This document shows positions 3,532 through 7,987 of a stretch of 42,211 bases of DNA, piece by piece; positions within the stretch are counted from its first letter, which is position 1, and each line of letters starts with the position of its first letter. The notes under the pieces were generated by a model that was not told where the DNA came from, made no database searches, and worked only from the letters and a program-made list of their open reading frames with translations. Both the position numbers and the translations under genes were made by a program. Location of the stretch: assembly GCA_002728255.1 (NCBI GenBank), contig PBWV01000043.1, positions 29,532 through 71,742 of the forward strand, in the 5' to 3' direction. The stretch is from Rhodospirillaceae bacterium. GTDB taxonomy: Bacteria > Pseudomonadota > Alphaproteobacteria > UBA7887.

Positions 3532-4764
3532 TTAGGCATATGTCCTTACATCGTCAATAACCTTTCCGTCGTTCTGCAGAGATTCCAACTGCTCTAGGAT
3601 GACCTCACCTTTTATTTTACAGATTGCTTGCAAGCTTTTGGCAATTTCGCTTTTGAGGTCTTCGCTCGGCTGAGGGACCTCACAATGAAGGGTCATGAAG
3701 TCAACGTGGTCTTGATTGTCCACAACGAGCCGTGCCCGACTGATTTCCACATGTCGTTCTACAACTTGTGCGATTTGCTTAGGGTGAATAAACATCCCTT
3801 TAACCTTCGTTGTTTGATCCGCCCTTCCCATCCATCCCTTAATACGAGAATTAGTTCTGCCGCATGGACTTAGACCAGGCAACAGAGTAGAAAGATCCCC
3901 CGTTGCGAATCGGATTAGGGGATAATCAGGGTTTAAAGATGTTACTACTATTTCGCCTACCTCCCCTTCTGGTACTGGGGTTCCGGTCCCCGGCCGGACT
4001 ATTTCTAGTATTATGTCTTCATCGACTATCATCCCGTCAATGGCAGATGATTCGTAAGCGATAAGTCCAATATCTGCGGTTCCATAGGACTGAAGCACCT
4101 GGATATCTTTTTGCTGGAAGTATTTTCTGAGACTAGGCGGGAGTGCTTCGCCACCGACTGCGCCATGGGTGATAGATGAGACGTCGAGGTCCATAGACCC
4201 AGCCTTCTCCAGCAAGATTCGCAAAAATGAAGGGGTGCCAACATATTTTGTTGGTCTAACTTTGCTAATTACCTCAACTTGTTGCTCGGTGTTTCCAATC
4301 CCAGCAGGTATTACTGTGCAGCCACACGCATGTGCTCCAGCCTCCATCATATGTCCCGCAGGTGTGAGGTGATAAGCGAAAGTATTATGAACTAGGTCAC
4401 CTTTCCGAAAACCGGCGGCATGCAGGGCGCGGCCCATCCGCCAAAAATCCCCTCTTTTTTTACCGGGTTCAAAAATTGGGCCAGGGGAACAAAAAACCCA
4501 GCTCAATTCGCCATATTGTGCAGAAGATAAGCCTCCGAAAGGAGGGTTTTTTGTCTGTCGGGCGGTTAATTCAGATTTCCGGATGATAGGCAATGTGGCC
4601 AAGGTTTCCCTCGAACTAATTTCCACAGGATCGATTTCAGAGAGAAGTTTTGCCCACCCGGGTGCGTTATTTTTAACGAAGTTTATGTGATTAGGAAGCG
4701 CGCTGAAAAGGGCTGTCTCGCGTTCTTGCGGGTTACGCCTTTCCAGTTTATCGTAATATTCCAT
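3532..4764 (-). CDS. PaaK-like phenylacetate/benzoate-type CoA ligase with divergent ATP loop
   Basis: A 410-residue member of the PaaK branch of adenylate-forming CoA ligases. It starts MEYYDKLERRNPQERE, a typical PaaK N terminus, so the ATG at 4764 is preferred over one 15 bases upstream. Conserved late motifs are SYGTADIGLIAYES, FATGDLS, GWMGRADQTTKVKGMFIHPKQI, and the C-terminal NDGKVIDDVR with the adenylation lysine. The canonical phosphate loop SSGTTGKP is missing; FCSPGPIFEPGKKRGD occupies its place. The gene diverges from boxC-boxB, which need an aryl-CoA substrate, so activation of benzoate or a related acid is the natural inference. It is not a standard benzoate-CoA ligase, and the substrate cannot be read from sequence. 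Confidence 0.82.
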   Translation of the reverse strand: MEYYDKLERRNPQERETALFSALPNHINFVKNNAPGWAKLLSEIDPVEISSRETLATLPIIRKSELTARQTKNPPFGGLSSAQYGELSWVFCSPGPIFEPGKKRGDFWRMGRALHAAGFRKGDLVHNTFAYHLTPAGHMMEAGAHACGCTVIPAGIGNTEQQVEVISKVRPTKYVGTPSFLRILLEKAGSMDLDVSSITHGAVGGEALPPSLRKYFQQKDIQVLQSYGTADIGLIAYESSAIDGMIVDEDIILEIVRPGTGTPVPEGEVGEIVVTSLNPDYPLIRFATGDLSTLLPGLSPCGRTNSRIKGWMGRADQTTKVKGMFIHPKQIAQVVERHVEISRARLVVDNQDHVDFMTLHCEVPQPSEDLKSEIAKSLQAICKIKGEVILEQLESLQNDGKVIDDVRTYA

Positions 4765-4911
4765 GATAAGTCCTTCCATACATTAGTTCCGCAAGTTATT
4801 AAACCAACCATAACACTTCTTTTTAGCTTATCGTAGCTCCTGGGTTATGGTATTTCCTCAACTAACTTACCTCGTGCATAGGTATAGCATGCGAAAAGTT
4901 TTAGCATCGGG

Positions 4912-4919
4912 AAAGGAGG
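4912..4919 (+). promoter_or_regulatory. Strong Shine-Dalgarno sequence that fixes the boxC start
   Basis: AAAGGAGG lies 8 bases before the GTG at 4928. It is a near-perfect anti-16S match, whereas the upstream in-frame start candidates at 4847 and 4889 have none, so it decides the boxC start and suggests high expression. Confidence 0.7.
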
Positions 4920-4927
4920 ACTTACTA

Positions 4928-6568
4928 GTGGAAGATTCCGTGGTCGACTTTCAGACAGCGCCAGAGGATTATCAACATTGGCAGCTTTTGGTTGAACCTC
5001 CCCTTGCAACTCTATTCATGAATGTTAAGGAGGATGGCGGCCTGGGGTCAGGTTATGAACTAAAACTGAATTCTTATGATTTAGGGGTGGATATTGAACT
5101 TCATGATGCCATACAGAGGTTGCGATTCGAACATCCAAATGTTGGCGCAATAATCATAACTTCAGCGAAGCCGCGGGTATTTTCATCCGGGGCAAATATA
5201 AAAATGCTGGCCTCTGCTACCCACGCTGCGAAGGTCAATTTCTGCAAATTTACGAATGAGACGCGATGCGCGATGGAACAAGCGACGGCGCTCTCGGGCC
5301 AGTCGTATATTGCGGCGCTGAATGGAGCTGCATCAGGAGGCGGATATGAACTCGCGTTGTCCTGTGAGCATATAATTTTGATAGATGATGGTTCGTCGCG
5401 AGTAGCATTACCGGAACTTCCATTGCTTGGGGTCCTTCCGGCGACGGGTGGTCTAACCCGACTTGTGGATAAGCGTAAAATAAGACGTGATTACGCTGAC
5501 ATTCTTTGCACTACGGCGGAGGGCATAGGTGGAAAAAGGGCAGTCGATTGGGGTCTTGTTGATGAATTGACGGTGCCCTCCAAACTTGAGGAGGCAGCAG
5601 TATCCCGGGCGCGTTTGTTGGTTGGGGATGAGGACCGAACAAACCGGAAAGGGGTAGGATTGACCCCCTTATCTAGAAAATTTGGCGAGGACAAGTTAGA
5701 ATATAGCCATTTGAGTATAGAACTTAATTCTACGACGTCTGTAGCTACCTTCACCATTTGTGGTCCAGAGAACCCATGTCCTGTTGAGTGGGAAGAGGCT
5801 CTTACGCAAGGACCTCTATTTTGGCCTCTTCAACTGGTCCGGGAACTCGACGATGCCATCCTTCATTTAAGAACAAACCGGCCCGATATTAGTTGCTGGG
5901 TTTTTAAGGTTTCTGGGACAGCGGAACTACTCAATAGCTACGACTCTTTCCTATTAGCCGAGCCTGACAATTGGTTCAGTAGGGAGATCAGACTATTCTG
6001 GGTTCGCACACTAAAACGGCTCGATGTAACTTCTCGGAGTTTAATATCCGTCATTGATAGTAGTTCCGGTTTTTCTGGCACTCTGTTTGATCTGGCACTT
6101 GCTTGCGACCGTATATACATGTTGGATGAAAAGGATGTCTGTTCTATTGGGGTGAATGAAATGAACTTTGGTGGGCTTCCGATGGCAAATGGCCTGAGTC
6201 GGTTAGAGAACCGATTTATGCAGGACCAGGAGTCTTTGGGGAAGGTACGTCGACGGGTGGGTGAAAAAATCTGGGCCGGTGACGCTAGCCAATTGGGGTT
6301 AGTTACTAGCTGTCCAGATGAAATAGACTGGGACGAAGAGTTAAGGTTAGCAATCGAGGAGCGGTCCAGTTTTTCTGGTGATGCTTTGACTGGCCTTGAA
6401 GCAAATTTGCGCTTTTCAGGCCCGGAAACAATAGAGACGAAAATATTTGGAAGACTCTCGGCGTGGCAAAACTGGGTTTTTCAGCGGCCAAATGCCGCAG
6501 GGGATGAGGGGGCGCTTCGTAGATATGGAACCGGGAAACGGCCGATTTTTGATCGAAAACGGGTATAG
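4928..6568 (+). CDS. boxC: 2,3-epoxybenzoyl-CoA dihydrolase (benzoyl-CoA-dihydrodiol lyase) BoxC
   Basis: A 546-residue double-crotonase enzyme that hydrolytically opens the ring of 2,3-epoxybenzoyl-CoA in the aerobic benzoyl-CoA pathway. The N-terminal crotonase domain has VFSSGANIKMLA and NGAASGGGYELALSC (oxyanion hole and active-site region), and a second crotonase-like half follows with FSGTLFDLALACDRIYM. Length fits the family. The frame extends upstream to 4847, but the GTG at 4928 is preceded by AAAGGAGG at ideal spacing, the best ribosome binding site in the neighbourhood, and yields the family-like start EDSVVDFQTAPEDYQHW. boxB starts 6 bases after its stop. No boxA reductase is adjacent. 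Confidence 0.95.
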   Translation: MEDSVVDFQTAPEDYQHWQLLVEPPLATLFMNVKEDGGLGSGYELKLNSYDLGVDIELHDAIQRLRFEHPNVGAIIITSAKPRVFSSGANIKMLASATHAAKVNFCKFTNETRCAMEQATALSGQSYIAALNGAASGGGYELALSCEHIILIDDGSSRVALPELPLLGVLPATGGLTRLVDKRKIRRDYADILCTTAEGIGGKRAVDWGLVDELTVPSKLEEAAVSRARLLVGDEDRTNRKGVGLTPLSRKFGEDKLEYSHLSIELNSTTSVATFTICGPENPCPVEWEEALTQGPLFWPLQLVRELDDAILHLRTNRPDISCWVFKVSGTAELLNSYDSFLLAEPDNWFSREIRLFWVRTLKRLDVTSRSLISVIDSSSGFSGTLFDLALACDRIYMLDEKDVCSIGVNEMNFGGLPMANGLSRLENRFMQDQESLGKVRRRVGEKIWAGDASQLGLVTSCPDEIDWDEELRLAIEERSSFSGDALTGLEANLRFSGPETIETKIFGRLSAWQNWVFQRPNAAGDEGALRRYGTGKRPIFDRKRV

Positions 6569-6574
6569 AAAGCA

Positions 6575-7987
6575 GTGACGATAGACTACAACGAGAAAAT
6601 CCCGAATAACGTTGATTTGGCTAGCGATCGGCGCCTGCAAAGAGCTCTGGAAGGCTGGCAACCAAGTTTTTTGGATTGGTGGAGGGAGCGGGGGCCTAAG
6701 GGCTTTCATGATAATGAAGTGTATCTCCGTACGGCCATTAGCATTGAACCCGGTGGATGGGCTCATTTTGATCATGTTCGAATGCCAGAGTACAGATGGG
6801 GCATTTTTCTTGCTCCACCAGAGGATAATAGGGTCATCGGTTTTGGAGCAAATAAGGGTGAAGCCGTTTGGACGCAAATTCCTGGAGAATATAGGGCAGA
6901 TCTCCGTAGGCTGATTGTTACACAGGCAGATACAGAACCGGCTTCAGTCGAGCAGCAATGCTTGCTTGGGCACAGCGCTCCCTCCCTATATGATTTACGC
7001 AACCTGTTTCAGGTTAATGTTGAAGAGGGGCGACATCTGTGGGCAATGGTTTATTTGCTTCATGCTTATTTTGGTAGAGATGGAAGAGATGAGGCGGCTT
7101 TGGCTTTGGAGCGTCATTCTGGCAATGCGGATCGTCCCCGCATTCTTGGGGCCTTTAATGAAGCTACGGCAGACTGGCTGGCATTTTTCATGTTTACGTA
7201 TTTTACTGATAGGGATGGAAAATACCAGTTGGCCTCATTGGCGGAATCAGCCTTTGACCCATTAGCTAGGACTTGCCGCTTTATGCTGACGGAAGAAGCT
7301 CACCATATGTTTGTTGGTGAAAGTGGAGTAAAGAGGGTGATAGCGCGGACAGCGGAAGTGATGAGAAGTCATGACACAGAGGATGTTCGCGAGCTTGGTG
7401 TGATTGATCTAACTACAATCCAGAAATACATTAATTTTCACTATTCTGTATCCTTAGATTTATTTGGTGGGGAGATGTCTACTAACGCTGCGGCGTATTT
7501 TGAGTCGGGGCTGAAAGGGCGGTTTAATGAGAAAAAAATAGATGATGATCACAGTCTAAAACAAGATGTAGTGCGAGTGCCTAAATGGGTCGATGGCGGG
7601 CCTGGCTCGGTTGAAGTGCCAGCAATTAATGGGCTTAATGAGCGTTTACGTAGGGATTTTATCTCTGACTGTAACCGTGGTCTAGATCGGTGGAACAAAG
7701 TTTTGGAAGAACATGGGATTGCAAAGAAACTGTGTCTTCCCCACCATGCGTTTAATCGAAAGATTGGAGAGTTTTCCAGCTACAGTGTTGCGCCTGACGG
7801 AACGCCTGTTAGCGAGGAGGAGTGGAGCTCTCGTCATGCGGAGTGGCTCCCAACGATTGAGGATGAAAGCTTTGTGGCTAGCTTGATGAAGCCTTGTTTT
7901 GAAATCGGGAAAGTAGCGTCATGGATTACGCCACCGCATCGTGGAATAAATGGGCGTCCTGGGGATTATGAATATGTCAGGTTATGA
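6575..7987 (+). CDS. boxB: Benzoyl-CoA 2,3-epoxidase oxygenase component BoxB
   Basis: A 470-residue ferritin-like di-iron oxygenase that, with electrons from reductase BoxA, converts benzoyl-CoA to its 2,3-epoxide. The N terminus NEKIPNNVDLASDRRLQRALE and LDWWRERGP are diagnostic. Di-iron ligand motifs are present: NVEEGRHLWAM (ExxH) in one helix and LTEEAHHMFVGE (ExxHH) in a later one, with an Asp in ATADWLAFF between. The enzyme therefore looks catalytically intact. It starts with GTG 6 bases after boxC and is clearly co-transcribed. The gene pair ends without boxA or a box regulator; accA converges from the other side 41 bases later. The electron donor must be encoded elsewhere or replaced. 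Confidence 0.96.
   Translation: MTIDYNEKIPNNVDLASDRRLQRALEGWQPSFLDWWRERGPKGFHDNEVYLRTAISIEPGGWAHFDHVRMPEYRWGIFLAPPEDNRVIGFGANKGEAVWTQIPGEYRADLRRLIVTQADTEPASVEQQCLLGHSAPSLYDLRNLFQVNVEEGRHLWAMVYLLHAYFGRDGRDEAALALERHSGNADRPRILGAFNEATADWLAFFMFTYFTDRDGKYQLASLAESAFDPLARTCRFMLTEEAHHMFVGESGVKRVIARTAEVMRSHDTEDVRELGVIDLTTIQKYINFHYSVSLDLFGGEMSTNAAAYFESGLKGRFNEKKIDDDHSLKQDVVRVPKWVDGGPGSVEVPAINGLNERLRRDFISDCNRGLDRWNKVLEEHGIAKKLCLPHHAFNRKIGEFSSYSVAPDGTPVSEEEWSSRHAEWLPTIEDESFVASLMKPCFEIGKVASWITPPHRGINGRPGDYEYVRL

Follow-up and report, generated by a model that had tools for sequence, protein, structure and literature searches.

A proline-containing SPGP loop in the ATP phosphate site marks a candidate subfamily of PaaK-like ligases

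The ANL superfamily is recognized by several signature motifs, among them the phosphate-binding loop, or P-loop. In PaaK1 the ATP phosphates are bound by backbone amides of this loop together with the Ser94, Thr96 and Thr97 side chains (reviewed in PMC8388817). In 4-chlorobenzoate-CoA ligase, mutants at Thr161 and Gly163 cost 2,000-fold and 1,000-fold in activity, respectively, and at Pro168 the cost was total, while mutants at Gly166 and Lys169 were milder (14-fold and 4-fold, respectively; PMC8388817 Table 2). PaaK-like enzymes can also serve non-aromatic acids, as exemplified by the 2-hydroxyisobutyryl-CoA ligase Hcl (PMC8388817) and by the beta-valinyl-CoA ligase BvaA, a PaaK-like enzyme whose gene is clustered with leucine-type degradation genes (PMC4619459).

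The gene described here lies in a 42,211-nucleotide stretch of contig PBWV01000043.1 from a Rhodospirillaceae bacterium, the whole of which is referred to as the window. A PaaK-like open reading frame on the minus strand (3532..4764) encodes a product of 410 residues. There is a further in-frame ATG upstream at 4779; the N-termini of the orthologues agree instead with the start at 4764. The description of this product as PaaK-like in the initial annotation was sound. The protein matched the Pfam AMP-binding family (PF00501) at 56.5 bits against a cut-off of 29.9, over residues 136-275 only, which places it in the ANL superfamily, and the closest PDB structures in a profile search were 4r1l (first, E 5e-62), 2y4o and 2y27, all of them PaaKs. 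The best curated NCBIfam matches were likewise PaaK models, at 142-150 bits against cut-offs of 646-700. The score on the PaaK equivalog TIGR02155 was 142.5 bits (cut-off 646.3), and the window protein exceeded the cut-off of none of the NCBIfam equivalogs. When 11 sequences were scanned against NCBIfam, the same four families were the only matches at 1e-20. An AlphaFold2 model built from an 11-sequence alignment had a mean pLDDT of 60.2 and a pTM of 0.40, with pLDDT <50 at residues 62-109 and 227-316, intervals that take in the loop and a large part of the core.

The altered A3/P-loop region, FCSPGPIFEPGKKRGD (residues 91-106; 4447..4494, minus strand), has a core at S93-P100 (4465-4488, minus strand) that reads SPGPIFEP. 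Three alignment routes were used for this loop (MAFFT, hhalign against PaaK paralogues, and hmmsearch against the PDB PaaKs 4r1l, 2y4o and 2y27), and S93-P94-G95-P96-I97-F98-E99-P100 aligned gap-free on the PaaK P-loop S-S-G-T-T-G-K-P. Read against the ANL pattern (S/T)(S/T/G)G(S/T)TGxPK, the window's SPGPIFEPG fits at S93, G95 and P100 only. The initial annotation had regarded SSGTTGKP as replaced. SPGPIFEP does stand in its place, but the replacement is partial, because those three residues still match. A normal loop at another site had also been raised as a possibility; since a motif scan found no [ST]xG[ST]xG match anywhere in the window protein, a P-loop hidden elsewhere was ruled out.

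Among 79 orthologues the loop had the consensus SPGPI[YF][ED]P. S93, P94 and G95 were invariant (79/79), P96 and I97 were each conserved in 75/79, and residue 98 was tyrosine or phenylalanine in 71/79. Residue 99 was acidic (E or D) in every orthologue, while P100 was proline in 69/79 and so not invariant. A chance origin of the loop was excluded by the invariance of S93, P94 and G95 together with the constant acid at residue 99, and a sequencing or assembly quirk was ruled out by the presence of the same loop in 79 orthologues. PaaK-like paralogues in the same genome set retained SSGTTG in the MAFFT alignment. The SPGP proteins also had a short deletion after the loop relative to PaaK.

The counterparts of PaaK1 Ser94, Thr96 and Thr97 in the window protein are P94, P96 and I97, so all three side-chain contacts are gone, and two backbone NHs of the PaaK1-type loop are lost to proline. 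The suggestion in the initial annotation that the phosphate-contacting loop is altered, and that ATP handling may differ, was thus supported, as the PaaK1 contacts (PMC8388817) fall on exactly these residues. The conserved acid at residue 99 would also suit phosphate binding badly. Thr161, Gly163 and Pro168 of 4-chlorobenzoate-CoA ligase correspond to S93, G95 and P100, so the three most mutation-sensitive positions are kept in the window protein; the changed positions include the equivalents of Gly166 and Lys169.

The 79 orthologues were 46-100% identical and came from alpha- and betaproteobacteria. An SPGP gene was present in 67 of the 398 sampled genomes of the phylum (about one sixth), one copy each, in the window's class and in others. 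In plasmid records, identity fell abruptly from 46% within the subfamily to 32% for other PaaK-like proteins. In the tree, the 79 SPGP rows lay on one side of a branch with an SH-aLRT support of 100, opposite eight PaaK-like rows, which places the window protein outside the PaaK clade; the copies from the window's own family formed one clade (support 98). Comparison of the window gene with that of its sister species gave a dN of 0.013 and a dS of 0.081 (dN/dS ~0.16), and the ratio within genus g5 was ~0.18. Subfamily members are annotated merely as "AMP-binding protein" or as PaaK-like, and a literature search in which subscription journals were thinly covered found no paper on the subfamily or on the gene cassette described below. 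Because the loop is kept in some 80 relatives from many proteobacteria, usually beside a transporter of an acid-uptake type, these sequence comparisons indicate that it marks a distinct, so far undescribed enzyme subfamily, and that it is neither a mistake nor the mark of a benzoate-specific enzyme.

The other ANL motifs were largely retained. The A5 motif YGTAD (residues 227-231; 4072..4086, minus strand) has D231 for the usual E; 70 of the 79 orthologues share this D, and the other 9 have E. In the A7 motif TGD (residues 288-290; 3895..3903, minus strand), which contains D290, the G and D were invariant (79/79), as were G313, R314, A315, D316, Q317, K320 and G323 of the A8 motif GRADQTTKVKG (residues 313-323; 3796..3828, minus strand). 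The A10 lysine position was first assigned by MAFFT to D399; hhalign and hmmsearch both gave K401, in NDGKVIDD (3562..3564, minus strand), which we adopted. At this position 69 of the orthologues have K and 4 have R, while the remaining 6 have I, L or V. The claim that the later motifs and C-terminal lysine are kept was therefore correct for the window protein, which has the A5 acid, A7 Asp, A8 Arg and A10 Lys, but not for the lysine across the subfamily.

Gene neighborhoods were read at 70 loci. The SPGP gene was near livG at 60 of these, livM at 57, livH at 56 and livF at 55, and at 54 it was near a second ligase of ~640 residues, whose own loop was intact (TSGTTGxPK or TSGTTSxPK). The commonest orders were ligase-livF-livH-livM-livK-livG-(SPGP gene) and livF-ligase-livH-livM-livK-livG-(SPGP gene), and clustering of flanking open reading frames gave no recurrent partner other than the cassette genes. 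This combination of a second ligase and a livFHMKG-type transporter looks built for the import of carboxylic acids and their activation with CoA. We infer this substrate class from the liv-type neighbors and from the PaaK-like enzymes that act on non-aromatic acids (PMC8388817, PMC4619459). In Azospirillum and Peteryoungia some cassettes run on into leucine-type (liu-type) degradation genes, and in Xanthobacter the cassette adjoins a gene resembling methylmalonyl-CoA mutase. At two loci from two other families (L163 and L164), a lone SPGP ligase gene sat beside a 5'-nucleotidase-like gene and a ferrochelatase gene, both named by eye. On plasmid RPME01 of Methylibium petroleiphilum (L044), genes for a Rieske oxygenase and for a PDR/VanB-type reductase lie within ~9 kb of the cassette and may be part of the fuel-ether degradation region of that strain.

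Our preferred reading, to which we assign a probability of about one half, is that the SPGP proteins are PaaK-fold acid:CoA ligases, one per genome, whose ATP-phosphate site has been remodelled and then kept under selection and which are linked to carboxylic-acid uptake, the catalysis, substrate class and role of the loop each being drawn from sequence and context. A carboxylic acid would be activated via an acyl-adenylate and then passed to CoA, with metal and other residues holding the ATP phosphates, a task that normally falls to loop hydroxyls and amides, and the usual setting would be a cassette for acid import and CoA activation. An active but altered ligase is favored because the window protein keeps S93, G95, P100 and K401 and because the A5, A7 and A8 residues hardly vary, if at all, among the orthologues. 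Selection and the coherence of the subfamily add to this, given the dN/dS values in g1 (the window and its sister) and g5, the fully supported clade, and the recurrence of livG and the second ligase beside the gene. This reading is weakened by the lost PaaK1 side-chain contacts and the two lost NHs, the acid at residue 99, the variability of P100, the loss of the A10 lysine in six orthologues and the low confidence (pLDDT <50) of the model in the loop and much of its core.

Some of those weaknesses lend substance to the main rival, a possible explanation although we consider it short of even odds, in which ATP-dependent adenylation has been lost and the AMP/CoA side of the PaaK site is kept in a non-adenylating partner that could, for example, bind acyl-CoA or acyl-AMP, carry out the thioester half-reaction, or regulate the intact ligase of the cassette. 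An invariant P94, a near-invariant P96 and a loop acid where three phosphate contacts should be, with the A10 lysine gone in six orthologues, would suit such a protein, and the second ligase could supply the adenylation. However, the residues of A5, A7 and A8 that position ATP are invariant or nearly so, the window protein retains the three most mutation-sensitive loop positions, and the gene and the ligase of the cassette are unlinked in the window genome. A more specific proposal, which we regard as rather unlikely, is that a widespread branch of the PaaK family dropped the phosphate loop together with adenylation, and that its AMP/CoA site was reused either to transfer acyl groups or to sense acyl-CoA, in connection with acid uptake through the transporter.

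The initial annotation had proposed that a ligase beside box genes could define an aryl-CoA-forming branch. The neighboring genes are indeed those of the box pathway, with both products above curated cut-offs: boxC, for 2,3-epoxybenzoyl-CoA dihydrolase (4847..6568, plus strand), scored 785.6 bits on TIGR03222 (cut-off 712.3), and boxB, for a benzoyl-CoA 2,3-epoxidase subunit (6575..7987, plus strand), scored 809.7 bits on TIGR03225 (cut-off 499.1). No BoxA reductase scored above the cut-off in the window genome, which is rated 99% complete (best 25 vs 459 bits). The ligase gene and boxC diverge from an 82-bp intergenic region (4765..4846) that is near-identical in the sister genome, and the spacing in genus g5 is likewise short. 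Both g1 and g5 have the SPGP gene divergent from an adjacent boxC-boxB, g2 has a dcd-like gene between the SPGP gene and boxC/boxB, and in g3 the SPGP gene comes after livK-livG. The boxCB linkage was found solely in the window's own family, and these family-wide neighborhoods indicate that it is a local conserved trait rather than the general setting. The g1, g2 and g5 genomes retain the second-ligase-livFHMKG cassette at another locus, which in g2 and g5 ends without an SPGP gene; the corresponding contig of the window genome stops ~400 bp past livG, in a frame resembling the g5 regulator, and a search of that genome found no SPGP copy besides that of the window. In this family the gene has probably left the cassette for its divergent position beside boxCB, where the ligase may act on an acid that, once converted to its CoA ester, enters aromatic or acyl-CoA breakdown.

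The regulator, named by eye as MarR-type, follows livG of the cassettes that lack the SPGP gene (L199:10329-11105 in G005 and L200:9334-10161 in G002) and has a long Lys/Arg/Ala-rich, histone-H1-like N-terminal tail; the copy of the window genome (C17:1-about 250) is cut by the contig end.

A dedicated benzoate or aryl-acid CoA ligase feeding BoxB and BoxC would explain the divergent arrangement, the adjacency of boxC in g1 and g5 and its proximity with boxB in g2, yet we consider it improbable. The window genome has a canonical benzoate-CoA ligase on contig C10 (612 bits, cut-off 375), which rules out the window ligase as its sole route to benzoyl-CoA, and such a ligase was above the cut-off in five of the eight family members searched. 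The window protein itself scored 18.1 bits on the benzoate-CoA ligase model TIGR02262 (cut-off 375.25), seven relatives carry the SPGP ligase without boxB, and the g3 copy sits with livK-livG. With most orthologues near a liv-type transporter, the proposed aryl-CoA branch was not supported. Based on the C10 ligase, the five family members and the relatives that lack boxB, the box linkage hints that the ligase takes part in the metabolism of acyl- or aryl-CoA and does not point to a substrate. Elsewhere in the window genome (contig C42), a 2-hydroxyisobutyryl-CoA-ligase-like frame with a normal loop (L080:8150-9166, minus strand) ends at a TGA after 338 residues, beside an apparent thiamine-diphosphate enzyme (L080:9698-11434). 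Finally, a decaying pseudo-ligase without function would account for the lost motif residues, but it is scarcely credible for a gene with S-P-G in 79/79 orthologues, one copy in each of 67 genomes and a dN/dS of ~0.16.

A conserved subfamily in which an invariant proline-containing loop is combined with otherwise retained ATP motifs amounts to a natural experiment on the necessity of the P-loop, and, judging from its cassette, there may be a widespread, as yet unassigned route by which carboxylic acids are taken up and activated. SPGP proteins should not be annotated as phenylacetate-CoA or benzoate-CoA ligases.

Of the known systems, PaaK (PDB 2y27/2y4n and 2y4o; 4r1l from Bacteroides) is the closest, with homology over the full length (profile E 5e-62 to 2e-49), the same two-domain length and aligned A5, A7, A8 and A10 regions. 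It differs in having SSGTTGKP where the subfamily has SPGPI[YF][ED]P and a short deletion, and the window protein is set apart from it by its 142.5 of 646.3 bits, its separate clade and the liv-type context of its subfamily. Hcl (PDB 6hdw) is also PaaK-like and acts on a small acid, but it is distant in sequence and retains a normal HGTSGTTG loop. BvaA resembles the subfamily in that some SPGP cassettes also adjoin liu-type genes; however, its ATP pocket is reported to be present, and the only transporter in its cluster is one for amino acids, not a liv-type cassette (PMC4619459). Benzoate-CoA ligase (TIGR02262) belongs to the same superfamily and is the expected partner of BoxB and BoxC, whereas the window protein reached 18 of the 375 bits required and the true benzoate-CoA ligase is encoded elsewhere in the window genome.
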